A stretch of DNA of 64,000 nt from Rhodopirellula bahusiensis (GTDB lineage Bacteria; Planctomycetota; Planctomycetia; Pirellulales; Pirellulaceae), in NCBI RefSeq assembly GCF_002727185.1, contig NZ_NIZW01000001.1:186001-250000 (forward strand). The letters run 5' to 3'. Position numbers and translations under genes: made by a program. Position 1 is the first letter of the stretch. Every line of letters begins with the position of its first letter. This document shows, piece by piece, positions 21,980 to 44,266 of the stretch. Under the pieces are notes generated by a model, which made no database searches, was not told where the DNA came from, and worked only from the letters and a program-made list of their open reading frames with translations.

Positions 21980-22053
21980 GGCGCGGTAGCTCAATTGGTT
22001 AGAGCCCCGGACTGTCGATCCGGAGGTTGCGGGTTCGAGTCCCGTCCGCGTCG
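21980..22053 (+). tRNA. tRNA-Asp (anticodon GUC)
   Basis: The cloverleaf folds completely: acceptor GGCGCGG with CCGCGTC (one G-U), D-stem GCTC/GAGC, anticodon stem CCGGA/TCCGG with loop CTGTCGA (anticodon GTC), T-arm GCGGG-TTCGAGT-CCCGT, discriminator G. CCA is not encoded. A run of seven T follows as a terminator. An integrase gene starts 200 bases downstream on the same strand, so this tRNA is the probable integration site of the element to its right. Confidence 0.95.
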
Positions 22054-22166
22054 CTTTTTTTACCCCGCAATTTGCTGGGTTTGTGAATTTCGGTATTCTC
22101 TCAGAGTTCGCTCTGTCCGAGAAGTTGTCCGAAAACTTTGGTATGATGACACGCGTCAGGCGGTTT

Positions 22167-22252: not shown

Positions 22253-23422
22253 ATGGCTCATTTCCCAAAGCCTTTCTTCAAGAAGGCTCGTGGTCTCTGG
22301 TACGTTCAGATTGACCGCAAGCAAATCAATCTTGGCCCTGATCGCGATGAAGCGTTCCGCCAATACCACCAGATGATGAGTCAGCCACGAGCTGACCATG
22401 TCTCCCCCGAATCGGTCGTTGCGATCATTGATTCGTTTCTCGATTGGGTTTACAAAAACCGGGCACCGGACACGTTCGAGTGGTACCGCCATCGTTTGCA
22501 GCGGTTTGTCATCCAATATCCCGAGATGACGGTTTCCCAACTCCGCCCATTCCACGTCGAGCAGTGGGTTGGGCAGTACGATCTGGCCGTCACAACGAGA
22601 CACAACTATTTCAGATCGATCAAGACGTGCCTGAAATGGGCGGTGAAGCAAGGTTACATCCAATCAAGTCCGCTCAAAGACATGGAAGTCCCATCGCCGG
22701 AGCGACGAGAAGTCTACATTCCTCCCAATGAATTCAACGCGATGCTGGTTCACGTCCCCGTTGGGCCGGTGCGCGACTTGCTCGTAACGACCTATCACAC
22801 AGGTTGTCGCCCCCAAGAATCGCTGCGATTGATGGATCGGTACGTTGAGCTAGGCAAAGCTCGTTGGGTGTTTCCTCAAAATAAATCAAAGGGTAAACGT
22901 GCCCCTCGTGTTGTTTACTTGGACGATGAGGCGTTGGCCATCACCAAACGTCTTCTCGCTGAATCCAATGGTGGCGAACTATTCCGTAACACACTTGGCA
23001 ACCCTTGGACGAAAGACTCAATCAACTGTGCCGTCGATCGAATCAGAATTCGGATGGGCAAAGCAGCGTTGAAGTCCGCCGGCAAAGAGCCAACTGATGA
23101 AGAAATTGCAAAACGCATCAAGAAGCTGAAAAAAACGAAACGGGCAAAGGGTATAGAAAAAGTCAAAACGGCTGCCGAGCTTCGTTGTGAAGCAAAGCAA
23201 AAACTGTTTCGCAACATGGCATATGCTGCCGCCCCTCGCTATTCGCTCTATTCGCTTCGGCATTCTTGGGCCACCAACGCTTTGAAAAGTGGCGTTGACG
23301 CACTAACCGTCGCCCTGCTGATGGGACACCGTGATCCAGCGATGCTGGCACGAGTGTATCAGCATCTGTCGCACAGTCCTGATCACATGCTGGAACAGGC
23401 CATACGAGCTACAGACAACTAG
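22253..23422 (+). CDS. Tyrosine recombinase / integrase
   Basis: A 389-residue site-specific recombinase presumed to integrate and excise the element at tRNA-Asp. The N-terminal DNA-binding part opens FPKPFFKKARGLWYVQI; a SAM-like core-binding domain follows at ~50-140. Catalytic residues: Arg186 in TGCRPQESLRL, Arg336 in SLRHSWATN (the preceding His is Tyr333), His359 in GHRDP and nucleophile Tyr369 in ARVYQHL. A Lys/Glu-rich insert of ~50 residues (about 273-325) lies before the second Arg. The ribosome binding site is buried in a helix (22192-22252). Confidence 0.93.
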   Translation: MAHFPKPFFKKARGLWYVQIDRKQINLGPDRDEAFRQYHQMMSQPRADHVSPESVVAIIDSFLDWVYKNRAPDTFEWYRHRLQRFVIQYPEMTVSQLRPFHVEQWVGQYDLAVTTRHNYFRSIKTCLKWAVKQGYIQSSPLKDMEVPSPERREVYIPPNEFNAMLVHVPVGPVRDLLVTTYHTGCRPQESLRLMDRYVELGKARWVFPQNKSKGKRAPRVVYLDDEALAITKRLLAESNGGELFRNTLGNPWTKDSINCAVDRIRIRMGKAALKSAGKEPTDEEIAKRIKKLKKTKRAKGIEKVKTAAELRCEAKQKLFRNMAYAAAPRYSLYSLRHSWATNALKSGVDALTVALLMGHRDPAMLARVYQHLSHSPDHMLEQAIRATDN

Positions 23423-27177: not shown

Positions 27178-27816
27178 CTACCAGAGTTCATAGGGAAGAT
27201 CAGCGGACTGGCAGTGTTGATGGAAGGATTCGAGTTGTTTCAACGAGTAACGGCCTGCGGATTCGATCACGCGGGTGACGCTTCCTGATTCGTCGAACAG
27301 ATATGCGTCGGGATTCTTGACACCTCGTTCTGCCATTGAGACGGCGTCCTCGCCAAGCCAAGTGCAAGCGAGTTTTGGTTGAGTGGTTCGATACCGCAGA
27401 TAAACCGCTGAAAGCAGCAAGTCGTGATTGCGGTGGTTCACCGGTGGTAGCCCACCAGCCGATGAACCGAATAGTCGTGCAGCGTGATGACTTGCAGCGA
27501 CAACGGGCGTTGGTTCACATCGCTCGTTCCACCTGGAACTGACAATTTCTGCAATGCGATCAAAATCGGGTGGTGCTTGCTGAGGCATCCATGATGCAAG
27601 CGGATGTTGTTCGATGGGCGAAGCCTGCACCGTCCACACATCACCGACAATCATTCCCGCGCCGCCCAATTGCCTAACTGCTTTGACGACCATTTTCGAG
27701 CTGCCAAATTGTGACTGCCAGCCCTCGTGGATATGGGAAAGCGAAAGCAGTCTCACGCGGCAGGTGAGCGTTTCCATCAAATCATAAATCGCGGGGGTCC
27801 AAGTTCGTTGAAACAT
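27178..27816 (-). CDS. Replication-relaxation-like protein A2
   Basis: A 212-residue protein with an N-terminal winged-helix-like region and a C-terminal strand set PDAYLFDESGSVTRVIESAG followed by a helix and the terminal LPYELW. The product of 31202-31837 has PDAILVDSNDEPAILIEFGG and ends LPYQIW, so they are paralogues. The D...E pattern recalls the PD-(D/E)xK fold of Replic_Relax proteins, but the Lys is missing. The ATG at 27816 overlaps the stop of the ATPase gene by one base (TGATG); a GTG at 27819 is possible. Confidence 0.6.
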   Translation of the reverse strand: MFQRTWTPAIYDLMETLTCRVRLLSLSHIHEGWQSQFGSSKMVVKAVRQLGGAGMIVGDVWTVQASPIEQHPLASWMPQQAPPDFDRIAEIVSSRWNERCEPTPVVAASHHAARLFGSSAGGLPPVNHRNHDLLLSAVYLRYRTTQPKLACTWLGEDAVSMAERGVKNPDAYLFDESGSVTRVIESAGRYSLKQLESFHQHCQSADLPYELW

Positions 27817-30500
27817 CACTCGGCTCCCGTTGCGAGAGTTGCTGATGAATCAATTGGGTGATCTTGCAAGTAGCGATCGAACATTCCGACTGCTTCGGAT
27901 ACAGTTGCCTTGGCTTGCGAAGATGGTTGTTTCTTCAATCTTCGCGTTGCTTTTCGCTGGCGTTGCTTCTTACCTTTGGCCTTCGTAGCTGAAGGATTGG
28001 ATTGCGATTCCGGTGAGGGGCCAATTGAGATCGTTTCGTTGGAGATGTCCGGAGACGTGCTTGATCTGCGTCCGCGATGGGGAATCTCTTTCTTCGGTCG
28101 CTCCCAAGTCGACGGTATGAACGTTCCGATGTCCTTCGAGGGCCATGGCGTGTTTTTGCGCTCTTGGTATTCCTCGGATGAGATATGAAAGTCGCTTTCG
28201 ATGATGACGGGCATCCCGCCGTACTGGGCGTAGCCAGCCCCACGATTGATCAGTACAACACTTTTGCGGTCGTCGTCGCTAACCAATTTGATGTCGTTCT
28301 TTGTCAATCGCGGTGCGACAAAGTCGCGGACGGTCCGAGAAGTGCTGGTGGTTGCACCTCGGTCGTTGACTGATCTGGAAACGGCGATTGATTCGATCGT
28401 GTCAATCGTTTCGCCGCTCGCCTTGGAGAGTCGATCTTGATCGTCCCAACCGGAGATGGCGAACCACTGGCGATACCGGCAATTTGTCTCCAACGTTGAC
28501 GTCAGGTCATAGCGATACAAGTCTTGCATGGACTGATTCGCTAGGATGACGGCGACACCCATGCTGCGAGCAAGTTGCAGCAGATAGTCCAGGTTTCTCG
28601 AAGCCATTCGCTGAAACTCATCGACTACCAAATAGACAGGTACTTGGCGTTCGGTGAGCGTTGCCGCCGTCAACAGCATGAAGCTGGCCAGTCGGGCAAT
28701 TTCCGGCGACGAACCTGGTCCTAGCGTTGCGGACAGACTGAAGTAATGAGCTTCGGGACGCTGAAACAATCGCGTCGGGTCAACGCAATTTTCGGCAACC
28801 TCTCGGTTCGGCGTGCAATCATCGGTGATGTTCAACGCGGCAATTGATGCCAGACGCGTTACCGACATCTTGACGTGGTTTCCAGCGTCCTTCGATTTTT
28901 CATCGAGGCCATGTCGCTTCGGCGACGAGATAACATACGCGAGTTTGTCGCGAAGTTGCTCGAAATTCTTGATCTCAGGAAAGTGGCTGACCGTTGCATA
29001 GAGAACCGATGCGTTCGCGGAACTGAAGTAGCCCTCGCCATAGTCGCTGCCGTAGTTGAGGCCCAGCGCTCCGCACAGAATATCGGTCTTTTGCAATTCG
29101 GTAAGACGGTTCCAACACGGGAGCCTGAATGGATTGAAACCGTAGGTTGCTTGGTCGTCCCGTTGCGTGAAGTAGCGAATCGGAACATCGGTGCCGTTGA
29201 GTGTTTTGGCCGTGCTCGCACCTTGCCGGAGAGACTGGAGAAGCTCGGGCGAGTCGCCTTTAAGGTCGAGCACCATCACGCTAGCGTTTCCTCCGCCCAC
29301 GACCTGCTCGATGAACGGTGAGAGTCCGCGAGCCGTCTTGCCCGAACCACTGTCGCCAAGGAAGTGGGCATGCTCGCGAAACACTTCCGATGGCACGAGC
29401 AATGGTGATTGGTCGTACGAGACTCGGCCAAGATATAGGCTTGCACGTTCGACCGGGTTGTGTGATGAACGAATGCGGTTAGTGATTTGCTTCCACTCGC
29501 TGGCCGGAACAAAACTTGGCTTCGGAATGGAAAGCCGTCCGAAGACGGGTGTCCCGACTATCAAAACCGCCAGAAAGAAAAGAGTGACTGGCAGCAGTGC
29601 CATCGCTCCGCATTGCACGACAAACAGGCCAATATTGAACAGCATTCCAAACAAGCTTTCTGCGTTGGCAATGCGACCAAAGCCGATTACCGCCTCGGTT
29701 GCTTGAGAAATGGCGGTCACTCGAAAGAACGCGAAAGCGTTTACAACAACCGCAACGGTGAGAATCGCCAGTCGTCTTCGGCAATTTCCCGAGGGACTTA
29801 CCAAAACACCTGCGAGCGGTTGGTCGTCTCGGTTGTAGCTGCACCAAGTCACGATGGCGGAAAGACAGCCGTGAACATATTGCTGAGGCGATTGGCAGTA
29901 GACCGCAGCCATTGCCAACCATCCGATAGCCGCAACCAACAGCAAGAGTGATGTGTGCTGTGGAATCAGCACGCAGAGCGCGATCGGCAGGAGCAAAACA
30001 CAACTGGACAAAGTCTGCCAGCAAAGGTCATCCCGAGTATTCCATGATTCATCAACTGAGGTGGGCGACACGGTCGCGACAAAGGTGAAATGGCGAACAA
30101 CTTCTCGCGCAACAAGTGCCGTTAGAGTCAACGCCACGTAGACATCAATCGCAATGGGCAACCGGAAAAGTTGGTAAATCCACGCTGCAACAATCACTGC
30201 GAGACTGATATCGCGAGTAATGGCGAGATGCGATCGCGTTTTACTCCACGCGAGAAAGGCCATGACTGCTACGATCAACAGAGCCAAAAGCGTGACATCG
30301 AGTAGCAGGAAAGGAATCCAGCAACAAAGCAAAGTCACAAAGCTGGTGAGCACTAGTTCCCGCAACACCTTGATGGTGAAGTTAGCGTCGTCGTTGTCGA
30401 CGCCTCGGTGGTAGGCGAATTCCAGCTCCAACGGCTCAGATGGCACGAGATGGCGTTGTATAGGGTTGCCGGGCGATTGTCGGTATACACTTCTAGGCAT
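27816..30500 (-). CDS. VirD4/TraG-like coupling ATPase
   Basis: An 894-residue membrane ATPase of the type IV coupling protein class, expected to bring DNA to a transfer channel. Several transmembrane helices fill residues ~50-330. Walker A is GDSGSGKTARGLSPFIEQV (near 390), then VMVLDLKGDSPELL, Walker B VYLVVDEFQRMASRN (near 625), and an Asn/Gln-rich VILANQSMQDLYRYD sensor region. The C-terminal ~100 residues are basic and low-complexity. A ribosome binding site (AAAAGGA) precedes the ATG. No channel genes are in the window, so transfer would need outside help. Confidence 0.85.
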   Translation of the reverse strand: MPRSVYRQSPGNPIQRHLVPSEPLELEFAYHRGVDNDDANFTIKVLRELVLTSFVTLLCCWIPFLLLDVTLLALLIVAVMAFLAWSKTRSHLAITRDISLAVIVAAWIYQLFRLPIAIDVYVALTLTALVAREVVRHFTFVATVSPTSVDESWNTRDDLCWQTLSSCVLLLPIALCVLIPQHTSLLLLVAAIGWLAMAAVYCQSPQQYVHGCLSAIVTWCSYNRDDQPLAGVLVSPSGNCRRRLAILTVAVVVNAFAFFRVTAISQATEAVIGFGRIANAESLFGMLFNIGLFVVQCGAMALLPVTLFFLAVLIVGTPVFGRLSIPKPSFVPASEWKQITNRIRSSHNPVERASLYLGRVSYDQSPLLVPSEVFREHAHFLGDSGSGKTARGLSPFIEQVVGGGNASVMVLDLKGDSPELLQSLRQGASTAKTLNGTDVPIRYFTQRDDQATYGFNPFRLPCWNRLTELQKTDILCGALGLNYGSDYGEGYFSSANASVLYATVSHFPEIKNFEQLRDKLAYVISSPKRHGLDEKSKDAGNHVKMSVTRLASIAALNITDDCTPNREVAENCVDPTRLFQRPEAHYFSLSATLGPGSSPEIARLASFMLLTAATLTERQVPVYLVVDEFQRMASRNLDYLLQLARSMGVAVILANQSMQDLYRYDLTSTLETNCRYRQWFAISGWDDQDRLSKASGETIDTIESIAVSRSVNDRGATTSTSRTVRDFVAPRLTKNDIKLVSDDDRKSVVLINRGAGYAQYGGMPVIIESDFHISSEEYQERKNTPWPSKDIGTFIPSTWERPKKEIPHRGRRSSTSPDISNETISIGPSPESQSNPSATKAKGKKQRQRKATRRLKKQPSSQAKATVSEAVGMFDRYLQDHPIDSSATLATGAE

Positions 30501-30515
30501 GGGATTGATCCTTTT

Positions 30516-31193
30516 TTAGTTGGCTCGAAGTAAAAGGAATGAAAGACGTGGAATCACAGCGATGTGGACGCGAACTGCATCAGTGCAACCGCAAGCCACG
30601 AGAGCTTTGGAAATTGCTTTCGCCTTCTCTTCGCTGGTGGTCAAGACAACGACTTGAAATCGAGTTGCAGCGGCCAGTTCAGAAATTTGCGGAACATCAA
30701 GGCGGTCAAGAGAAGCCTGCGTCGTCTTTCGAGCAACGTGCTGCGGTGAACCACCAAGATCGACACGGATGAGTTCCAACTGGCCATTTTTGTCAACGCA
30801 ATAGGGGGAGTGAGACAAGTCTCCGGGAAGCCAAGGCATGTATTGGTTGACTTCTTCACCCGTTAGTCGACGACGCGTGTTTCCACTCGTCGCATAGATC
30901 AATGTTGCGAAATCGGTTGGTAAAGCTTGCGGACCGAGCGATTCACCAAGACGTGACGACACTCCCAGCGTGCTGATGGCTTTGCCGCCAAGTCGAAAGT
31001 AGTTTTCTGGCGGAACGAGGACATAGCGATTCAGGATTTGAGCGGAACAGAGGCGTGCAGTAACTTTTGCAACTGCATTCATCGACCGTCCGGGCAACAA
31101 TTGCGTGGCGACGACGTGGTTAGTCGCGAGACGGTAGCGCCGGACGAATTCAACGAAGGCGAGGTCTCTTGGTCGGAGTATTGATTTGTTCAT
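30516..31193 (-). CDS. Replication-relaxation-like protein B1
   Basis: A 225-residue protein. The N-terminus is a winged helix (LRPRDLAFVEFVRRYRLATN, then RSMNAVAKVTARLCSAQIL), and the C-terminal half carries LELIRVDLGGSPQHVARKTT. It is the paralogue of the product of 26515-27153 and lies on the other side of the coupling ATPase. I chose the ATG at 31193, with AAGGA upstream. Probable role in replication or transfer of the element, unproven. Confidence 0.6.
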   Translation of the reverse strand: MNKSILRPRDLAFVEFVRRYRLATNHVVATQLLPGRSMNAVAKVTARLCSAQILNRYVLVPPENYFRLGGKAISTLGVSSRLGESLGPQALPTDFATLIYATSGNTRRRLTGEEVNQYMPWLPGDLSHSPYCVDKNGQLELIRVDLGGSPQHVARKTTQASLDRLDVPQISELAAATRFQVVVLTTSEEKAKAISKALVACGCTDAVRVHIAVIPRLSFLLLRAN

Positions 31194-31201
31194 TGAAGTC
31201 C

Positions 31202-31837
31202 TTACCAAATTTGATAGGGCAGGCCACGCAGGACTGCATCGTCGTGAAAGGCGGAGATCCGATCCGCTTGGTAGTCGCCACCAAACTCGATCAAAATTGC
31301 TGGTTCATCGTTGGAGTCGACGAGAATTGCATCAGGCATTGATTGGCCGGGTTCGCTGTCGGTAATCAGATTCTCACCACGCCACGCGGTGGCATAACTT
31401 GGATGGTTGCAATAGAACCAAAGCCAGACTTCGGAGACGCCAAGGTCATGTGATACCTGAGCCGACATCACTGCTTTGTTGCGTCCACCGAAGTGATTGA
31501 CAGTTTGCTCGGTCGGCAGGAAAACAACCGTCGAACGAGGAGTTCGGTATCGCCATCGACTCTGCAACCGAAATGCAATTTGCGAGACATCCGGGTGTGG
31601 TTGCCCCGGCTGCCAGACGCACACTGGGCTTAGCAACTCTGGCAACGGCCTGGCCATCACCAGACTGCGTTGAAGTAGCCCCAACTCAGTGAAACGACTC
31701 AGGCGACGGCGAGCATTGGCGATGTCGCCAGCCCAGAGTGCATCGGCCAGTTGACGCTGGCCAAACAAGCGGACCTGCAAGCTCAAGGCTCGCAGGACGG
31801 TGACGTCGCGATCGGTAAATTGCGTCCGCTTGCTCAT
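31202..31837 (-). CDS. Replication-relaxation-like protein A1
   Basis: A 211-residue protein. FTDRDVTVLRALSLQVRLFG and DIANARRRLSRFTELGLLQR form an N-terminal winged helix; PDAILVDSNDEPAILIEFGG and HDDAVLRGLPYQIW form the C-terminal restriction-fold-like part. This is the order described for Replic_Relax proteins. It is the paralogue of the product of 27178-27816. Its ATG overlaps the stop of the upstream gene (ATGA). Confidence 0.62.
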   Translation of the reverse strand: MSKRTQFTDRDVTVLRALSLQVRLFGQRQLADALWAGDIANARRRLSRFTELGLLQRSLVMARPLPELLSPVCVWQPGQPHPDVSQIAFRLQSRWRYRTPRSTVVFLPTEQTVNHFGGRNKAVMSAQVSHDLGVSEVWLWFYCNHPSYATAWRGENLITDSEPGQSMPDAILVDSNDEPAILIEFGGDYQADRISAFHDDAVLRGLPYQIW

Positions 31838-32223
31838 TCGCCCATTTCTCCGGCGTCTTCCGAAACGTCTATCCGAACCGGCTTTTTATTGCCTCGCTTT
31901 TTTTTGGGCGTCGTCGTGTCGGGCAAACCGACTGGCAACCCCATGTCCGCTTGACTGACACCCGTCAGCCGCTCACAGATTTCCGGTGCCGAGCTGAGCG
32001 GATCATTCAGCGACATTTCCTGAGCTTGATCGCGAATCAGTTTCGCCAAATGAGGTTTCCCGGCGGCTTCGTACCGTCGAGCTTGTTCTTCCAGTTGGTT
32101 ATGATGATCAGCGTGACCGAGAATGAGCATGCGTTGCAGAGCGGAAGCCATGAAGCTTCCGATGCTTGGCAAGGCCCGCTCAACAAGCCGGTCTGTCATC
32201 CACTGCGTCGTTTTTTGGAGCAT
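31834..32223 (-). CDS. Hypothetical element protein
   Basis: A 129-residue protein starting MLQKTTQWMTDRLVERALPS, with a helical middle (NQLEEQARRYEAAGKPHLAK) and a basic, Lys-rich tail containing TPKKKRGNKKPVRI. It heads the minus-strand operon that contains the paired replication-relaxation-like genes and the ATPase. An AGGA ribosome binding site precedes the ATG at 32223. I do not recognise the family. Confidence 0.55.
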   Translation of the reverse strand: MLQKTTQWMTDRLVERALPSIGSFMASALQRMLILGHADHHNQLEEQARRYEAAGKPHLAKLIRDQAQEMSLNDPLSSAPEICERLTGVSQADMGLPVGLPDTTTPKKKRGNKKPVRIDVSEDAGEMGE

Positions 32224-32255
32224 GGCTAATCCTGTCTTGGGGTTGAAAAGCAACT

Positions 32256-32356
32256 CTCCGGGAATGTCATCCGACCCGGAGTGACAGAATTATTGGCGAC
32301 CTTCGGTTCACGCTAAATTCAAGCTGGTGCAATCTGCGAACAAGTTGGTTGCACCA
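32256..32356. promoter_or_regulatory. Two dyads in a divergent promoter
   Basis: The gap between the minus-strand operon and the HTH-pseudokinase gene holds CTCCGGG-N12-CCCGGAG (32256-32281) and TGGTGCAA-N16-TTGCACCA (32325-32356). Their position, and the XRE-type HTH encoded next door, make them candidate operators. Confidence 0.45.
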
Positions 32357-32372
32357 CAAACCAAGGTGGCCA

Positions 32373-33407
32373 ATGACCAACGCAGGACCGAAACACGGAC
32401 GGACGGTTTCAATCAACGTCTCGAAGCTGACAGCCGCGATGAATCATCGCGGTCTGAGCGTTGAACAATTGAAAGAGCTTGCTGACGTTTCGACGGGGAC
32501 AGTCAACAATCTGCTCGCCGGAAAATCCGTTTACCGGACAACGGCGTCGCAGGTGGCCGCCGCACTTGGGACAACACTCGACGTGTTGATGAACGCGTCG
32601 ACTCCCATTGGAGGCGCATCGACAGTTCACGAATATCTGGTGTCCGATGTTCTGTCGGATTGGATCACGGCGTCGAATGGATTGAAATTCCAGCTTTGCC
32701 GTCTTCGGCATTTGGAACTAGATCGTCAGGCACGCGGGAAACGTTTTGACTTGCGAGACATGACCACCGATGAGGAGCAACGATGTCGTACTTGGATCAA
32801 GCGACACCCGAACGTTTGTGGCACCCTGCAAGACCATCCGAATATCGTTCGCAACCTCACGGCGTTTCACGATCCGGTCGAGAGTTTCTATTGGGTCATC
32901 GACGAATGGATTGACGGTGAACCATTGCAACGAACCTTGGGGCGGCAACCTTTTGAACCACTCGTCGTGAAAGAATTGCTGCTTGATGTGGCTCGTGGCT
33001 TACACGGGCTGCATGAGAAAGGAATTGTTCGACGCGAACTCACACCGGCAACAATTACGATTCGGAACTCGGATGGGCGGGCGATACTCACGGAGTTTGA
33101 ACTGGCCAAGCTGATTGATCGCGGACCAACGGTATCGACAGCGGAATGGCCGGTTGATCCATATCGTGCTGGGGAAGCGGATGCGGACGACGTTGATGTG
33201 CGGGCTGACATCTACAGTTGGGCGAGAATTGGCGTCCACGCCGCATTCGGCGAGTTGCCCGAAATCGGCTCAGAGAAGTCGGCATTGGAAGATACTTTGC
33301 TGCCAAGTTCGGTTCAGTCATGTCTCACGAAGGCAGCAAGTGTCTTCCGAAGCGAGCGTCATGAGTCGATGAATGAAGTCTTGCCGATCGTTGAGGTTTG
33401 GAAATGA
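32373..33407 (+). CDS. XRE-type HTH fused to a pseudokinase
   Basis: A 344-residue protein. Residues ~15-72 are an XRE/Cro-like helix-turn-helix (GLSVEQLKELADVSTGTVNN). The rest has the fold of a Ser/Thr kinase: WVIDEWIDGEPLQRTLG as hinge, LLDVARGLHGLHEKGIVRRE as the catalytic-loop region, and VRADIYSWARIGVHAAFG as helix F. Key residues are lost: HRDLKPxN is replaced by RRELTPAT, and DFG by TEF. I infer a non-catalytic sensor-repressor. The stop overlaps the next gene by ATGA. AAGG precedes the ATG. Confidence 0.8.
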   Translation: MTNAGPKHGRTVSINVSKLTAAMNHRGLSVEQLKELADVSTGTVNNLLAGKSVYRTTASQVAAALGTTLDVLMNASTPIGGASTVHEYLVSDVLSDWITASNGLKFQLCRLRHLELDRQARGKRFDLRDMTTDEEQRCRTWIKRHPNVCGTLQDHPNIVRNLTAFHDPVESFYWVIDEWIDGEPLQRTLGRQPFEPLVVKELLLDVARGLHGLHEKGIVRRELTPATITIRNSDGRAILTEFELAKLIDRGPTVSTAEWPVDPYRAGEADADDVDVRADIYSWARIGVHAAFGELPEIGSEKSALEDTLLPSSVQSCLTKAASVFRSERHESMNEVLPIVEVWK

Positions 33408-34903
33408 GCGACATAAATCCAGAGGAAGCGAACCAACTAAGAGAGGAAATCTCCGAATACCGAGCAGCGATTCAACAATTTCGGGATCTGCCTGACCCGC
33501 TTGGAAAGTTCGCGCGGACTTCAAGGTTGGTTGAGAAGGTTATTAAGACACACTTCCCTCCGGTGGAACCTGAAGTTAGTTCACTCGGAGGATTACTTCA
33601 TTCTCGAAAAGACTTTCTTGGTAAAAAGAAATTCCGAAAAGCTGCCTTCGCGATCGACATTCGCAATTTAGAACTCCACTACGATCCGGATCGGGAGGCC
33701 ACGGAAGCGGACGCGAACAAGGCGACGCGCATTCTATTCGAGATCATCGAATTACATTGCAAGGAGTTGGAGAAAGGGCTACCCAGAACGACGGAAGCCA
33801 TCGATCCGGCGGAAACGCGGCAATTCCCAACCACGACACGAGCCACGCTGCCGTTGCCGGAGCTAGTAGCGTACGCGACACGAATCGAACGCAAGTCACC
33901 ACCGATGCTTGATGCGGATGAAGCCGATCCGCATGTGACGGCATCAACGCTTGCAGAGTACACGTTTTGTCCACGCGCCGGTGTGCTGACGCACGAGGGT
34001 AGTTTTTCTGATCCGGAAGAGGAACTCCCATCCCTTGCTCTGCTTCCTTGGTACGAGCAGGCAGCCATCGAAGAAGCTTACACGCATGCCCTCTATGTTC
34101 TGTTTGCCTTCCCGGTGGGGTTGGTGGCGGCGGTTGTCATTCTGTCATTGATGTTGCTTGGGAATCCAGTCTATCCCCTCCTGCTGATCGGATTGGTATT
34201 GGGATGGACGATCTTTGCATGGCGGGCATTCCGACGTTGGCGAGAGATTGGTAACCGAAGACTTGCCGCCCAGCTCGCAAACGAGTGTAACCCTGTTCCG
34301 GGAAAGAATACGTTCCAGCCGGTCGATTGGTGGGGGTTACTTCTCGCTGGCTATGAAGTGCGTCGCCCCCAAGCCGCATTGCATGATGAGCGCTGGAAAC
34401 TCAGCGGAAAACCGAGAAGGATTCTGGATAAGGGAACGATGAGTATCCCCGTTCATCGAATCCGAAAACCCGAAGGACCAGTGCTTCCCCAACATATTGT
34501 TCGAGTGATGGCGCACTGTCATCTGATTGAAGCCACCGAAGGTGCGAACAGCCCTTTCGGGATCGTTTTATTTGGAAACACTTATCAGGGGATGACGGTG
34601 CCAAACACGAACGAGCACCGCGAGCGATTTTACACGGCTCTTGAACGAGTTCGGGCAATGATCATCGAGTCGGATGCGGGCGAGCGTCAACCTCCCGAGC
34701 CAGTCACCGGGAATGTATGCAGTTCCTGCCACTTCGGTCACCCTCGTTCAATTGCACACGAAGACAAAACGATGCGTTACGAGGAACCACTCGACCCCGT
34801 TCTATTCCACAACGGGAAGAAGGCCTTCCACTGCGACTGCGGAGACCGATTCAATTGGAAACCCAAGCATGACCGCAATCGGAAAATGCGTCGGCTTGAA
34901 TAG
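33404..34903 (+). CDS. HEPN / membrane / Cas4-like fusion protein
   Basis: A 499-residue protein of unusual build. Residues ~10-125 look like a HEPN (DUF4145-like) domain, with the R-x4-H motif in IDIRNLELHYDPDRE (Arg87, His92). A Cas4/DUF83-like region starts at VTASTLAEYTFCPRAGVL (Cys189), is interrupted by two transmembrane helices (~229-277), resumes at LSGKPRRILDKGTMSIPVHR and ends at Cys439/Cys442 (CSSC) and Cys477/Cys479 (HCDC). The nuclease residues expected in GKxD and (V)E(V)K are replaced. It is coupled to the pseudokinase gene (ATGA). I infer an effector of a defence or toxin-antitoxin-like module. Confidence 0.7.
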   Translation: MSDINPEEANQLREEISEYRAAIQQFRDLPDPLGKFARTSRLVEKVIKTHFPPVEPEVSSLGGLLHSRKDFLGKKKFRKAAFAIDIRNLELHYDPDREATEADANKATRILFEIIELHCKELEKGLPRTTEAIDPAETRQFPTTTRATLPLPELVAYATRIERKSPPMLDADEADPHVTASTLAEYTFCPRAGVLTHEGSFSDPEEELPSLALLPWYEQAAIEEAYTHALYVLFAFPVGLVAAVVILSLMLLGNPVYPLLLIGLVLGWTIFAWRAFRRWREIGNRRLAAQLANECNPVPGKNTFQPVDWWGLLLAGYEVRRPQAALHDERWKLSGKPRRILDKGTMSIPVHRIRKPEGPVLPQHIVRVMAHCHLIEATEGANSPFGIVLFGNTYQGMTVPNTNEHRERFYTALERVRAMIIESDAGERQPPEPVTGNVCSSCHFGHPRSIAHEDKTMRYEEPLDPVLFHNGKKAFHCDCGDRFNWKPKHDRNRKMRRLE

Positions 34904-34908
34904 TCTAA

Positions 34909-35880
34909 TCACTTCATCCTGTGTTGAATCCAGTCAGTCAGTCGACTGACGAGACTCGGCGTCGGACCATGCCGAGTCGTATGCCGAATTTCAGCCATTA
35001 CAGCGTTCCAAGTTTCTAGCCATTGACTAGATGTCTCAAAACGGTCGTCTGGTTTTATCGCCAACGAGCGGTCTAACAGGTCGTCGACCGTTTTCCAAAT
35101 CCGTTTCGGAATTTTGTCGCGTTCGGGACTGATTTCGCTAGGTGGCACCAAGCGTGACCTGGACTGAACGGAGTCAGGCAACATTCCAACTTTGCCACCA
35201 TAACCATCGTAAGGAATTCGACTGGTCAGCATTTCATACAGAACGACCCCCAGTGAAAAACAATCGGCGCGAAAGTCGACACGGCGTTGCCCCCCTAAAA
35301 GCTCCGGAGCCGAGTAAACACCGCTCGTGCCGTCTCCTTCCTCTCGTCTCGTTGTTCGCTCCACCGTCCATGCGTTACCGTAGTCAATCAGAACGAGACT
35401 GGTTCGTTTGGTGAGAATTAGGTTTGCTGGTTTGATGTCGCCGTGGACGATCTGTTTGTGGCGATGAAGGTGACGCAGTGCATGGGCCACACCTCTGACG
35501 AGACGAACGGCCTCAGGGGCAGCGATTCGGTGCCGGTTGTGATCACGGATACCGTTGAGCACAGACCTAAGATTGAAACCGTCAATCCACGGCACGACGA
35601 CGTGAACAGAATCACCGTCTTGATGGCATTCGAGAATTTGGAGGATTTCGTTGTCGCCTCGCGTGAGCCGTTGAAGCGTGCGGACTCGGTCAACGCCGCC
35701 GGACGAAGTCGGCAGGATATGCAGTGCTCGCATCTGTTTTGCACTTGGGTCGAAGACCTGAAAAGCCCGCCGTCCGGACGAGCCGATTTTAGCGACGGCA
35801 AGGTACGTGCGACCGCCGATCCGAAAGCGTTCGATAACCGGAAGCTCCGCCCCTCGATAACGGATCGGGCGATTCGGCAT
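34909..35880 (-). CDS. Ser/Thr protein kinase-like protein
   Basis: A 323-residue kinase domain protein starting MPNRPIRYRGAELPV. The catalytic loop HGDIKPANLIL (residues ~146-156), metal motif DYG (~166-168) and APE (~191-193) are intact. The glycine loop is poor, and the position of the ATP-binding Lys in V-A-x-K reads His54 (RALHIL), so catalysis is uncertain. The gene converges on the HEPN/Cas4-like gene, 5 bases away. It could phosphorylate, or sense, the products of that pair. I chose the ATG at 35880, with AAGGA upstream. Confidence 0.78.
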   Translation of the reverse strand: MPNRPIRYRGAELPVIERFRIGGRTYLAVAKIGSSGRRAFQVFDPSAKQMRALHILPTSSGGVDRVRTLQRLTRGDNEILQILECHQDGDSVHVVVPWIDGFNLRSVLNGIRDHNRHRIAAPEAVRLVRGVAHALRHLHRHKQIVHGDIKPANLILTKRTSLVLIDYGNAWTVERTTRREEGDGTSGVYSAPELLGGQRRVDFRADCFSLGVVLYEMLTSRIPYDGYGGKVGMLPDSVQSRSRLVPPSEISPERDKIPKRIWKTVDDLLDRSLAIKPDDRFETSSQWLETWNAVMAEIRHTTRHGPTPSLVSRLTDWIQHRMK

Positions 35881-35960: not shown

Positions 35961-36660
35961 CACCTGCCGGTCGCAAGCGACCCTAAGTCGCTTGCAGACA
36001 TGGGATTCAAAGGAATCAGGAATGGAACGTCAGCGGGTCATTTGATGTTCCGGTGCAGGTGCCATTTTTCGGGGCGGCAAGCGGGCCGCGTCGCGGCCCG
36101 CCAACAACGGCGGCGAACGCCAGTGAGCCGCTGACCGCCGGAGCGTCCAGCGGAGGCGGAAGACGACCGCAGGCTGCCCCAGCAGGCTCGGTCGTGAGTC
36201 GAGCGTCCAAGCGAGACGGGCGGGCGTTCAAGCCCGCAGCGAACCGCCCCAGCGGTGAGCGTCACGGCCCGTTCAGGGCCGGTGAAGCGTTCAGCGGAAC
36301 AAAGCCGAAAGGCTGGCCCCAGCCAGCCTGAGAGGCGCAGAAGAGAGGCCCGGCTGAGGGCGCGAGTTGTGACAACTCTTTCGGAAGATAGAGCGGGCGG
36401 GCCAGTCGTCGGTTGGCACATACAAGCCGTCAGTCGGATCGACTAGCAAGGTGAGTACGTCGACTCTTCCGCGACGCGGAAAGTCGCAAGCGAGCGGCGG
36501 GGTGGGCGAAGGGGGATCTCCTGATCGCGAACGCGGTCGGGAATCACTCGTAGCCAAAGTGACCGTCGAGGTGTTCCGCAAGACGAAGTCTGCGGAAACC
36601 GAGCGGGAACCCATCTACCAGATCGCCCACCGGGCGATTCGATGTTTCCCGGATTTTTTC
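35961..36660 (+). ncRNA. Candidate large structured RNA 1
   Basis: A GC-rich, gene-free stretch with a dozen strong hairpins: 35973-35995 (9 bp), 36081-36101 (10 bp, one-base loop), 36163-36195, 36220-36237, 36243-36256, 36265-36281, 36303-36314 (GAAA tetraloop) competing with 36311-36328, 36364-36378, 36461-36486 (11 bp), 36520-36541 (9 bp with G-U pairs), 36574-36597 (10 bp) and 36622-36638. CACCTGC (35961) also pairs with GCAGGTG (36055). The G-U pairs and GAAA loop favour the plus strand, and a TTTTTT follows the last hairpin. I see no protein family in any frame. Confidence 0.5.
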
Positions 36661-40259: not shown

Positions 40260-41168
40260 TTAGAACAACTTAATGTTGTTGCGGATTCGATGGCGGACAT
40301 CATCGAGTGCTTGGTTCAGTCCCAATTCGACCTCGTGATAGTTCATCTTGGTCGTAGCTGTCACGGTCACTTTGACGCCATTCTCCGCAGCAAAAACGAG
40401 ATGGATGCCGCTGCGAGCTTTGGACACCTTTTTTCCTCGGCGGATCTTGACCTGACGAACCGCTTTGGCGTGCGGCAGTTCGCCTGAAGCGGCCTTCGCT
40501 GCCAATTCAGATATGGAGCGATCGTTGTCGAGCTTACTTAATTCGTACGCGGACGACTTGGACAGAATTCCGCTTTCTACCTGAGACTGAAGTTCCTCGG
40601 GCAGATCGAGCAACGCAAGTGCGCGGCTGACGCGGGACGTAGAAAGATGTAGCGATTCGGCGACCTGCTTCCCGTTCCAATCGTTTAGGGTCATGAGTGA
40701 CTGGTACGCTCGGGCTTCTTCGATCGGTTTCAAGTCGCGTCTGTAAAGGTTTTCAACCAATTGTTGTTCACGGATTTCCGGCTCGGAAATTTCTCCTTCG
40801 ACGAAAAAGCAATTGACGTTCGGCAGTCCTGCAGCTTTCGTCGCACGCCATCGACGCTCACCTGAAATGACGATCCACTTTTCATTTGCTTCGTTCCATC
40901 GGACCCGAATCGGATGCAGTTGTCCGTGGGACCGGATGCTCGCGGCAAGCTTGGCAATATCTCTTTCATCAAACTCAGTTCGTGGCTGCTCGGGATCTGG
41001 AATCACTCGATCAACCTCGATTTTGCCGAATGTTCGCAGCGGCACGCGGCCAACATCTTTTGCCGAAGAAACCGGAGCGAGTTGCGTACGCCGCTCCGCC
41101 GGCCGAAGCCCCATTGATTCGTTAACGTTCAGTTTGACTTCTTCAAGTGCGTTTCGTGTGCTTCCCAT
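40260..41168 (-). CDS. parB: ParB-like partition protein
   Basis: A 302-residue ParB/Spo0J-type protein. The N-terminal nuclease/CTPase region has IPDPEQPRTEFDE, GQLHPIRVRW and the GERRWRATKAAGL (GxRRxRA) and ENLYRRDLKPIEEARAYQSL motifs; the central HTH is GKQVAESLHLSTSRVSRALAL. ParB would load onto centromere sites and work with ParA. It lies two bases downstream of parA in one operon. Candidate sites are the GATTGCAA palindromes listed here. Confidence 0.92.
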   Translation of the reverse strand: MGSTRNALEEVKLNVNESMGLRPAERRTQLAPVSSAKDVGRVPLRTFGKIEVDRVIPDPEQPRTEFDERDIAKLAASIRSHGQLHPIRVRWNEANEKWIVISGERRWRATKAAGLPNVNCFFVEGEISEPEIREQQLVENLYRRDLKPIEEARAYQSLMTLNDWNGKQVAESLHLSTSRVSRALALLDLPEELQSQVESGILSKSSAYELSKLDNDRSISELAAKAASGELPHAKAVRQVKIRRGKKVSKARSGIHLVFAAENGVKVTVTATTKMNYHEVELGLNQALDDVRHRIRNNIKLF

Positions 41169-41170
41169 AA

Positions 41171-41980
41171 CTATGCCACCTTGCGTGTTGATTCATTCGT
41201 ACCAATTCGGTCGAGAATCTCACGCGCCAAGCAATTAGTCAATTTTGCGGCCTTTGATTTGGAATCGTGGAACTGAACCGGGCATCGTCTGGTGAGAGCG
41301 ACTTTGAACGCCGATGCTTCCGGAATCACAGTCTCCATGACAGTTTCCCCATACATGTCGCGGAGTTTTTGCTCGTACATTCGATGAACTAATAGGCGGC
41401 AGTCTGAGCGAGTGACCAGATGTTTCAAGTCTTGGAGGTTCGGATTGAGTGACCGGACTTGCTCCACGCACTGATGCACAGCACGCAGACCTTGCGTTCC
41501 AAAGTCTTCCGGAGGAACCGGAATGAGAACCTGATCCGCAGCGACCATTGCAGTCCAACTGCATCGATACAGGTTCGGTGGGCAGTCAATCAGAACTATG
41601 TCGAAGCCAGATTGTTCGGCAACGAACTCGCGGATTGCGTACTGCAACATCCCAGTCTTCTCTGGCTCCGGTGCATTGAACGGAGCAAGCAATTGATTCG
41701 CTGGGCACAGCGTGATCCCCTCGAACTGGGTTGGACGCAGAATCTGGTCACGTTTAGCGAAGAACCTTGCTTCGTCGAACAACATCGCCAACGTCTGATC
41801 TGATTCCAAACTCTCAACGATTGACGAGCCGAGAAAGCCTTGGCTCAATGAACCTTGCGGGTCCATGTCGAGCAGCAAGACGTTCGCCCCCTGAGCCGCA
41901 AACGCTCCGGCTAAATGGAAACAAGTCGAGCTTTTGCCGCAGCCACCCTTCTGGTTGATTAAACAAAACGTTGTTGGCAT
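41171..41980 (-). CDS. parA: ParA-like partition ATPase
   Basis: A 269-residue deviant Walker ATPase. LINQKGGCGKSSTCFHLAGA is the P-loop, LLLDMDPQGSLSQGFLG and VLIDCPPNLYRCSWTAM follow. It segregates the plasmid-like element or, when integrated, may be maintained for its free form. The ATG at 41980 has a clear GGAGG; the open frame up to 42094 is not conserved. A perfect palindrome (41992-42012) lies just in front of the ribosome binding site, consistent with autoregulation. Confidence 0.92.
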   Translation of the reverse strand: MPTTFCLINQKGGCGKSSTCFHLAGAFAAQGANVLLLDMDPQGSLSQGFLGSSIVESLESDQTLAMLFDEARFFAKRDQILRPTQFEGITLCPANQLLAPFNAPEPEKTGMLQYAIREFVAEQSGFDIVLIDCPPNLYRCSWTAMVAADQVLIPVPPEDFGTQGLRAVHQCVEQVRSLNPNLQDLKHLVTRSDCRLLVHRMYEQKLRDMYGETVMETVIPEASAFKVALTRRCPVQFHDSKSKAAKLTNCLAREILDRIGTNESTRKVA

Positions 41981-41991
41981 GTTCCTCCAAT

Positions 41992-42012
41992 AAGATTGCA
42001 ACTTGCAATCTT
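41992..42012. promoter_or_regulatory. Palindrome 1 of the GATTGCAA type (parA/rep gap)
   Basis: AAGATTGCAA, a central C, and TTGCAATCTT: 10 bp per arm, perfect. It lies 11 bases upstream of the parA start and in the gap shared with the divergent rep gene. Related sites are at 43718-43732 and 44649-44665. Confidence 0.6.
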
Positions 42013-42163
42013 GGGCAAGTGACTGAGATCGCTGGTCGAATGGTCGCAAAGCAGTGGGCTGGTCGTCAAGCAATTTCGTCATCGACCGAAACACGCAGAC
42101 GCAATGGTTTGTTTTGTCACACTCCCCGGCTTCATGCTACGAAGCGGATGGGAGTTGGATTGC

Positions 42164-43426
42164 ATGGCGAAACCAAAACGAAATGTGGCGAAAAGCCAGA
42201 CAGGAATCGGTCAACTGAGTTTGGTGGAACACTCCCTGTGTCCGCTCGACCGCCAAGCGTCGCTTTCTGAAAACCTCGTTCATCAAGTCGAATACCGATA
42301 CAGCGATGCAAATCGAAAACGACAAACGGCACGTGCAAGAATATTTTGCCCGCTCGGATTGTCGGCAAGTGATGAACTCTACCTATGGGGTTTGCTGGCC
42401 CTGACGCTCTCGCTACAAGACGATCGCAGTGATTTGGTAGCAACACCCCACTGGTGCCTCCGACAGCTTGGTGTCGTCGACACGCGTTCGGCCCGTGGTG
42501 GCGAGCAATACCGGCTTTTCCGCGACGCGATCCGACGGCTATCTGTCACGAGCTACCTTTGCGATGCGTTCTACGACCCGATCAAGGCTGAACATCGAGA
42601 AGTTAGCTTTCATTTCTTCAGCTACGACCTTCCGAGCGGTTCGTCCCATCGAGCTTGGCGATTCAACTGGGATCGAACTTTTTACGATCTGGCGAAGCAT
42701 GGAGCAAGTCAACTTCGGTTCGACTTGGAACTGTATCGCAGCCTTGATCCAGCGTCGCGGCGGTTGTTCTTATTCGTTTCAAAGATTTTTCATCGGAGAA
42801 GTTCGCTTCCGTCCTTCGATCTTCGATACGTTGCAGTCGAGCTGATGGGTTTCTCGCCGACTGTCACGCTCCGTGACCTTCGCATAAAAGTCATTCGGTG
42901 TCTGAAGAAGTTGGATGCGTGCAACGTTGTCAGGGATGCAGAAATCTCACGAGTGTCGAAAGGCAAATATCTCCTTTCGGCAAATCGCGGCGTCTATTTT
43001 GACCAAAGAGCGGAGGACAAAGCATCAATGAAGAAGTTGCAGCCAATTATCGAGACACTCATCGGCCTGGGATTCGAGACCGGTGCGGCCTATTCGCTTT
43101 CGAGAAAGTACCCTGCTCGTTTGCTAGAGGAATGGGCGGACATCACCCAAGCCGCGTCGGAACGGTTTGGGAGACCGTTCTTCAAGAAGTCGCCAATGGC
43201 GTTTTTCGTTGACTCTGTCAGCAAGGCGTCGAAAGGTCAGCGGACGGCTCCCGATTGGTGGCACGAAGTCAGACGCGAGGAGCAGAATCAGGCTGAGCTA
43301 TCAAACAACAGTCAGAAGTTATTCGCCGACCTTCGTGCCGAACTATTCGGCGATTCTCCGGCCAAGCAGTCTCAGCAGGACGTTTCGGTCGAAACAGCCG
43401 CAGACATTCTCAAGAGTTTTAACTAG
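42164..43426 (+). CDS. Plasmid-type replication initiator (RepA/RPA-like)
   Basis: A 420-residue protein resembling the replication initiator protein A family: GIGQLSLVEHSLCPLD, RKRQTARARIFCPLGLSASD with ELYLWGLLALTL, winged-helix segments (LLFVSKIFHRRSSLPSFDLR) and a basic C-terminal part. It should open the origin next to it and recruit host helicase. The ATG at 42164 (MAKPKRN) has GGAG upstream; ATGs at 42134 or 42104 are possible. It is divergent from parA. Confidence 0.75.
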   Translation: MAKPKRNVAKSQTGIGQLSLVEHSLCPLDRQASLSENLVHQVEYRYSDANRKRQTARARIFCPLGLSASDELYLWGLLALTLSLQDDRSDLVATPHWCLRQLGVVDTRSARGGEQYRLFRDAIRRLSVTSYLCDAFYDPIKAEHREVSFHFFSYDLPSGSSHRAWRFNWDRTFYDLAKHGASQLRFDLELYRSLDPASRRLFLFVSKIFHRRSSLPSFDLRYVAVELMGFSPTVTLRDLRIKVIRCLKKLDACNVVRDAEISRVSKGKYLLSANRGVYFDQRAEDKASMKKLQPIIETLIGLGFETGAAYSLSRKYPARLLEEWADITQAASERFGRPFFKKSPMAFFVDSVSKASKGQRTAPDWWHEVRREEQNQAELSNNSQKLFADLRAELFGDSPAKQSQQDVSVETAADILKSFN

Positions 43427-43694: not shown

Positions 43695-44266
43695 CTATCC
43701 ACAGGTGTCGAACCCAAATTGCAAGTTGCAATCGTCACAGAGCTACGACTGAAAGTCGCTTTCCGAGCAACGCTGACTTCGGCTTTTGGTAGGCCTGATT
43801 CGCTGGACGCGAACGCTTGTAGATCGAAACACTCGCCTCCGACCACGTTTCGGCTTCACCAAGCCGAAAATTTGCAATCGTCTCTGGGTACGGTATTGAA
43901 ATTCCATTGGTTGGAAATCGGATTTCCACCATTGCTGTAAAGGACGTCAAACGCATTGCTGCGAGTGACCCGCAATTTCGGTTCGCGAGTGGTGATACGC
44001 ATGACAAACATCAGTAGGCAATCGCACCCGGTAAACTTGAATTCACCATTCAGGCTAAGGGAACAGAGTTAACCTCCTGTTACGCGGTTGGCCCGTAGAG
44101 CTGGATGCATCGAGAGGTGCTTGTCCAGTTCGACGGAGGCTTCGTCGAGTAATCCGGTTTTGTCCGCTGGCTTCGTATGCCAGTGATTTCAATTCCGAGT
44201 AATCCGACGATTCGATCCGATGCAAATCGGTCCCGCGAGGACACTGCCAGCGTCAATTGACGCTGG
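43695..44266. other. Candidate replication origin (oriV)
   Basis: A gene-free region downstream of rep. It holds a near-consensus DnaA box CTATCCACA (43695-43703), the palindrome ATTGCAA-G-TTGCAAT (43718-43732), a half site TTGCAATC (43872-43879), the 11-base direct repeat CGAGTAATCCG at 44146 and 44196, and the perfect 20-bp palindrome CCAGCGTCAATTGACGCTGG (44247-44266). The clustering, beside an initiator gene, suggests the origin. Confidence 0.45.
44247..44266. repeat. Perfect 20-bp palindrome in putative origin
   Basis: CCAGCGTCAA followed directly by its own reverse complement. It is a possible binding site for a dimeric protein, or a cruciform, about 90 bases before candidate structured RNA 2. 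Confidence 0.6.

Follow-up and report, generated by a model that had tools for sequence, protein, structure and literature searches.

A kinase, pseudokinase and membrane Cas4-fold pseudo-nuclease module that may control the transfer of integrative elements in Planctomycetia

Gene content of the module

The window analysed in this work is the whole of a 64,000-nucleotide stretch of the genome of Rhodopirellula bahusiensis (contig NZ_NIZW01000001.1, positions 186,001 to 250,000), and the subject of the work is a module of three genes that is carried within this stretch by an integrated mobile element. The first gene, HTHPK (32373-33407, forward strand), encodes a protein of 344 aa in which an XRE-type helix-turn-helix (HTH) is fused to a predicted pseudokinase. 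The second, CAS4TM (33404-34903, forward strand), encodes a protein of 499 aa that combines a HEPN domain with a membrane hairpin inserted in a putative Cas4-type iron-sulphur (Fe-S) pseudo-nuclease, and the third, KIN (34909-35880, reverse strand), encodes a 323-aa homologue of Hanks-type kinases which lacks the beta3 lysine. The gene coordinates bear out the layout given in a preliminary description of the sequence, in which HTHPK and CAS4TM overlap by ATGA and KIN is convergent with CAS4TM at a distance of 5 bases.

The features of the module were evaluated in a family sample of 40 non-redundant planctomycete loci, to which the counts below refer unless another number is given, with homologues taken from genome contigs and from whole-genome searches. 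The features of the three genes are not the product of chance, since they are kept in homologues at 25-75% identity and both folds of CAS4TM are backed by AlphaFold2 models and structure search. Phylum-wide samples gave few matches, the sensitive sample gave class members only, and a search for plasmid relatives gave no match. HTHPK and CAS4TM occur together in every locus (40/40) and are accompanied by KIN in 31, which agrees with the earlier proposal that the genes form one module of a mobile element. Of the nine loci without an adjoining KIN, four end at contig edges, and in another (L068/L146) KIN lies about 14 kb off on the same contig. The genome to which the window belongs has three copies of the module, one of which (L006/L013) is without KIN and has a transposase-like gene adjoining it, while another (L007/L014) is without HEPN.

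Catalytic residues of the kinase-like proteins

The assignment of HTHPK as an XRE-type HTH joined to a kinase fold, with RRELTPAT and TEF in place of the usual catalytic motifs, was part of the preliminary description and is upheld by Pfam matches above cut-off, both to XRE HTH families (HTH_3/HTH_26, 3.1e-5) and to Pkinase (3.3e-12). Among 40 homologues the Asp of the HRD motif is replaced in all 40 by Glu, Gly or Asn, the Asn of the catalytic loop is lost, and the Gly of DFG has become Glu or Asp, while Arg221 is invariant. Lys123 is a lysine in 39/40 and is a candidate for the beta3 Lys, a position which falls outside the profile alignments to solved kinases, as these begin C-terminal to it. 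HTHPK is predicted on the basis of these residues to be a pseudokinase in every copy.

The complementary pattern is found in KIN, which matches Pfam Pkinase at 4.8e-30. Its homologues retain Asp148 of HRD (29/29), Asn153 (29/29) and Asp166 of DFG (30/30), and Arg37 is nearly invariant; the position of the beta3 Lys, which contacts ATP, is occupied by His, Gln, Leu, Tyr, Met or Ile and never by Lys in any homologue with letters there. In the window this residue is His54, just as had been described, and KIN may have a WNK-like Lys elsewhere.

The Cas4-type part of CAS4TM

The Cas4-fold part of CAS4TM extends over residues 173-499 (33920-34900, forward strand). Its sequence matches to Cas4 are weak (PADLOC Cas4d, 1.1e-7; TIGR00372, 6.9e-4), and the fold is carried by structure prediction. 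An AlphaFold2 model built with 10 homologues, with a mean predicted local distance difference test (pLDDT) score of 76.7, consists of a helical N-terminus at 6-124, a long helical hairpin at 219-291 and an alpha/beta domain, and structure search with this model reached a Z of 15.8 to the Cas4/Cas1 fusion 7mi5_A over 168 aligned residues within 173-449. The model thus supports the Cas4-like fold proposed earlier and contains the two-helix membrane hairpin that had been placed inside it (helices 219-251 and 257-291), and a simple scan finds hydrophobic segments in 36/37 homologues. The motifs RNLELH, CPR, CSSC and HCDC, which had been read from the sequence, are all present. Apart from the start Met, no residues are invariant across 37 diverse members but C189, C439, C442, C479, G335, P337 and P349, so that the invariant set corresponds exactly to a cysteine quartet of Fe-S type, with putative cluster binding, and three structural positions.

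The nuclease site has not been kept in the same way. Among 40 homologues the motif-II Asp is replaced by Trp, Arg, Phe or Tyr in 40/40, the catalytic Glu is absent in 40/40, and the Gln is lost in 40/40, being Arg or Lys in 39; the Lys is retained in 8/40. The mapping of these residues is validated by Cas4-type proteins of the same class, which align with intact nuclease motifs (GKPD / PEEWK / HRVQ). CAS4TM is predicted from these replacements to be an Fe-S pseudo-nuclease without a complete nuclease site. The active Fe-S nuclease suggested in the preliminary description is rejected because the catalytic Asp, Glu and Gln are missing throughout the family, even though the four Fe-S-type cysteines are invariant in 37/37 aligned members.

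CAS4TM has in common with the Cas4 family of nucleases, both CRISPR Cas4 and solo-Cas4, its fold, the CPR motif, four cysteines and a RecB-like layout, but it differs from them in the lost catalytic residues, in the membrane hairpin that follows the first cysteine motif, and in the placing of the last Cys in CGDRF. No CRISPR genes were recognized beside CAS4TM. A published account of the family (PMC5704561) describes the catalytic motifs of Cas4 proteins as conserved and names one Cas4-like protein that has been inactivated, the nucleocapsid protein of a virus. Three other planctomycete Cas4-type proteins (L101, L102 and L103) begin with a hydrophobic stretch, which is followed by about 150 residues, and keep the GKPD, PEEWK and Q motifs intact, and these are possible active, membrane-bound relatives of CAS4TM.

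Association with transfer genes

Upstream of HTHPK lies a divergent operon on the reverse strand, from which it is separated by an intergenic region of 119 bp (32254-32372). The first gene of this operon encodes a 139-aa protein (31834-32253) with homologues in many module loci; it is followed by a Replic_Relax-type pair of 211 aa and 230 aa (30516-31837; PF13814 at 1.6e-6 for the 211-aa protein), which also has homologues in module loci, and by T4CP, a TraG/TraD/VirD4-type coupling protein of 894 aa (27816-30500; TraG-D_C 1.1e-7, TrwB_AAD_bind 2.7e-7, and SXT_TraD 6.2e-8, the last below cut-off). T4CP adjoins the module in most loci.

Genes for a coupling protein or Replic_Relax protein are found in 35/40 module loci, where the module lies beside or inside their operon; the exceptions are L072, L073, L086 and two contigs of 3-4 kb, and these five are mostly short or cut contigs. 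The order of the genes is much less constant than their content, with at least five arrangements of the module and the transfer genes. In the window the module is divergent from the transfer operon and KIN is convergent, while in L077, L079, L081, L140 and L142 the module is followed by the transfer operon in the same direction. KIN, HTHPK, CAS4TM, the Replic_Relax genes and T4CP form one same-strand row in L093, L094 and L096, the order is KIN-CAS4TM-HTHPK-T4CP in L016, and KIN adjoins Replic_Relax in L070 and L095. Since the content has been conserved through this reshuffling of order, a joint function with the transfer genes can be argued. The position in 35/40 loci also indicates that the module belongs to the backbone of the element, and it does not bear out the earlier view of a defence or addiction module carried as cargo.

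The reading preferred here, to which a probability of about 0.5 is assigned, is that this is a backbone module which would control or gate the transfer of integrative, coupling-protein-bearing elements of Planctomycetia. It draws on the synteny in 40 loci, the family-wide occurrence of pseudo-enzymes, the mobility of the element and the conservation of the 119-bp divergent region, which we infer to be a candidate operator for HTHPK; this region matches L001-L004 at 82-99% nt identity and a 72-nt part of L013 at 79%. It also draws on the finding that transfer genes are missing from only 5/40 module loci, whereas some clusters of coupling-protein or Replic_Relax genes (L138, L139, L144 and L145) do without the module. 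The mechanism envisaged is that HTHPK would bind the shared divergent promoter and repress both operons, while CAS4TM would tether HTHPK to the membrane close to the coupling protein and use its putative Fe-S/former active-site pocket to sense DNA, the redox state or some other ligand. KIN and the pseudokinase domain of HTHPK would act as a signalling pair whose output is the release of HTHPK, and HEPN, where fused, would be an added RNase effector, whose exchangeable allele would set up a barrier, bring about exclusion or serve in stabilisation.

Several observations weigh against transfer control. It is KIN, and not HTHPK, that is divergent to the Replic_Relax genes in L070, L085 and L095, and in L073 the HTHPK-CAS4TM pair stands within 15 kb that lack transfer genes. 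A palindromic operator common to the family was looked for, with no clear one found. No relaxase or channel of a type IV secretion system (T4SS) was recognized among the element proteins scanned, which represent part of its 100 kb, and the term "conjugative" is for this reason an extrapolation from the coupling protein.

Integrative and conjugative elements (ICEs) are known to have repressor modules, such as ImmR/ImmA of ICEBs1 and SetR/SetCD of SXT. The module resembles these in that an integrated element has an XRE-type HTH regulator encoded next to a transfer operon that runs divergently, but here the part that receives the signal would be a pseudokinase, accompanied by a kinase and by the Fe-S pseudo-nuclease of the membrane, in place of a protease or of RecA-driven cleavage.

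The proximity of HTHPK and CAS4TM to T4CP and Replic_Relax, including the same-strand run, can also be explained by a structural or coupling role, in which the two proteins would be parts of the DNA-transfer machine that dock the DNA of the element to the coupling protein at the membrane, with single-stranded DNA held in the dead pocket of CAS4TM and assembly regulated by KIN. The Cas4/AddB/Dna2/EXO5 fold binds single-stranded DNA in relatives whose structures were matched, and the residues that now occupy the former catalytic positions are basic or aromatic (Arg or Lys for Gln in 39/40; Trp, Arg, Phe or Tyr for the motif-II Asp). This role is nevertheless doubtful, because there are coupling-protein clusters that do without the module and because an XRE HTH next to a divergent promoter would sooner be expected of a regulator.

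The HEPN domain and its exchange

The HEPN domain occupies residues 1-124 of CAS4TM (33404-33775, forward strand), contains the motif Arg87-Asn88-x3-His92, and is an island of allelic replacement. In the model of the whole protein, residues 8-125 match HEPN AF0298 at Z 9.0; modelled alone, the domain reaches a pLDDT of 90.7 and aligns with 7ae6 over 118 residues at Z 9.7, and HEPN proteins (toxins, Csm6, sacsin) account for almost the whole of the top 20 matches, with Z of 7.9-9.7. The Pfam HEPN models are all below cut-off (PF05168, E 0.14; in other members RiboL-PSP-HEPN 0.019, Apea 0.035 and DUF4145 0.054). Because Foldseek E-values for the domain are weak and helical bundles score easily, the assignment, which agrees with that made earlier, rests on the fold together with Arg87, Asn88 and His92, which are invariant in 7/7 HEPN-bearing members at 28-37% identity to the window.

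These 7 close relatives are the only members of the 40 loci in which HEPN is fused to the N-terminus, and HEPN is an optional, exchangeable fusion. The exchange is visible in the comparison of the window with the related element of K23_9 (L001), to which the backbone has mostly 88-100% nt identity, while the region at approximately 33300-33900 has only 45-54%. At the protein level HEPN is 33% identical between the two, compared with 93-98% around it and 93-95% in the Cas4 parts and the membrane segment. The exchanged HEPN-coding segment measures about 0.6 kb, between elements that are otherwise about 95% identical. The window's allele can be identified as the replaced one, since the HEPN domains of L001 and L002 are 69% identical, in line with the backbone of these two. 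The reverse pattern is seen between L003:8001-9509 and L004:8001-9512, where HEPN is 95%, the Cas4 part 91% and the membrane segment 56% identical, and the membrane segment of L004 has 55-59% identity to those of L001-L003 between flanks at 84-93%. The membrane segment of CAS4TM is by these alignments a second, separate variable segment.

The preliminary description had proposed that the purpose of the module is the restraint of a HEPN effector by the pseudokinase, with the kinase as partner, in a defence or addiction system; in a wider form of this reading, HEPN would be the toxin of a defence, abortive-infection or addiction module and the pseudokinase and kinase would control it. The HEPN fold with its intact Arg-Asn-x3-His, best structural matches that include HEPN-MNT toxins, and a replacement of alleles that is the pattern of conflict systems are all in keeping with this proposal, and so are the remote profile matches of the kinase parts with MAD6 and PD-T4-6. 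It is nonetheless unlikely, since most members lack HEPN yet retain the pseudokinase, the membrane Cas4-fold protein and the kinase, and since the module belongs to the transfer backbone and not to the cargo; the idea that the module centres on HEPN is rejected on the first of these grounds. The kinase similarity is also distant: MAD6 of the MADS system ranks near the top of the NCBIfam matches for both HTHPK (2.1e-25) and KIN (1.4e-25), but at 89.3 and 89.9 bits, far under the curated cut-off of 460, and HTHPK has lost its catalytic residues. No MADS gene set was recognized near the module. The profile matches to MAD6, PD-T4-6, MkoA and PglW amount to generic kinase similarity, and a known defence system was rejected as a candidate.

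The sharp replacement of HEPN between near-identical elements bears on a further explanation, namely exclusion or immunity between related elements, in which membrane-bound CAS4TM with HEPN would recognise a second copy or block its entry, its specificity being set by HEPN and the variable membrane segment. The divergence of that segment in L004 and the different N-termini of the three related modules in one genome point in the same direction. This explanation seems very improbable, given that no known exclusion protein resembles CAS4TM, that an HTH-pseudokinase and a kinase would be unexpected as parts, and that the three modules coexist in that genome.

In relation to the HEPN superfamily (HepT toxins, Csm6, AbiV and the KEN domain of RNase L and IRE1), the fold, the helix count and the position of Arg-x4-His are the same, but here the domain is fused to a membrane pseudo-nuclease and its operon partner is a pseudokinase instead of an MNT antitoxin; no nucleotidyltransferase match was found beside HEPN, where both neighbours are kinase-like. 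RNase L and IRE1 join a kinase-like domain and a HEPN-type KEN domain in one chain. In the present module the kinase-like and HEPN parts are on separate proteins, and the resemblance is one of analogy and not homology. On its sequence features the module is predicted to be none of an active Cas4, MADS, BREX or HEPN-MNT system.

The preliminary description knew of no system with this combination, and searches of the open literature likewise found no description of a Cas4-like protein combined with transmembrane, kinase and HEPN parts, and no publication in which planctomycete transfer elements of such a type are treated. The module is absent from surveys of HEPN (PMC3710099) and of Cas4 (PMC5704561), and a survey of BREX (PMC12839542) mentions neither Cas4 nor planctomycetes.

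Under the preferred reading of transfer control, the three proteins of the module, which have stayed together despite wide divergence and in association with the transfer genes of a mobile-element family, would provide a testable case of control of gene transfer by phospho-signalling or a pseudokinase. Eukaryote-like kinases abound in planctomycetes, and for few of them is a role known. The exchange of HEPN, for its part, suggests an RNase-type effector plugged into a transfer backbone.

A covarying structured element beside KIN

A structured element of RNA or single-stranded DNA was detected with a covariance model upstream of KIN (36081-36329, forward strand). The same model finds it in 17/58 loci (L001:10660-10908, L003:10695-10942, L153:1022-1270 on the reverse strand, and others), in most of them just upstream of KIN and reading away from it, and within the window's own genome it occurs only in two element copies, with 0/24 among relatives. 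It folds into multiple hairpins, with repeated GTTCA/GTCCA and CCCCA hairpin loops, and 31/44 pairs have changes on both sides; pairing stands at 94.1%, compared with 74.7% after shuffling. It has no Rfam match. The counts of G-U and A-C pairs, 18 and 9, weakly favour RNA of the forward strand, and the element is a candidate non-coding RNA or origin of transfer (oriT) and a possible partner of the module.

A bolder proposal can be built on this element, in which the module would be a mobile-element checkpoint of a new class. HTHPK, with an almost invariant Lys123 and without the catalytic Asp, and KIN, with Asp, Asn and DFG and without the beta3 Lys, would be degenerate kinases whose losses complement each other and would work with the membrane Fe-S pseudo-nuclease as a single signalling pair, allosteric or composite in kind; the structured RNA or DNA beside KIN would be its ligand, and the HEPN RNase a plug-in, exchangeable output. 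This is considered quite unlikely.

The host element

The left end of the element is marked by a 52-bp direct repeat over the 3' end of a tRNA-Asp gene (22007-22058, forward strand). The second copy (G000:C1:308540-308591) lies on the same contig at a distance of 100.5 kb, and the window contains the left 42 kb of the element. Next to the tRNA gene is an integrase gene (22253-23422, forward strand; Phage_integrase 1.2e-12), and ParB and ParA genes, which are found in many module loci, lie at 40260-42094 on the reverse strand (ParB_N 6.6e-20; AAA_31 4.2e-30). ArdC-like and MT-A70 genes are also present, and the element carries an extensive cargo in which genes for sulfatases, transporters and the like are found. 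Since K23_9 belongs to another genus, the nt identity of about 95% between the two elements crosses a genus boundary, and this identity and the direct repeat at tRNA-Asp mark the element as mobile.

A 440-aa protein (42104-43426), conserved beside ParA/ParB in related elements, matches nothing in Pfam, in NCBIfam or among PDB sequences; its identification as a relaxase was rejected for want of a supporting match in the same collections, and it could be an unrecognized transfer or replication protein. Beyond it, at 44096-44208, is a match to the group II intron model RF00029 with a score of 40.1, the gathering score being 40.

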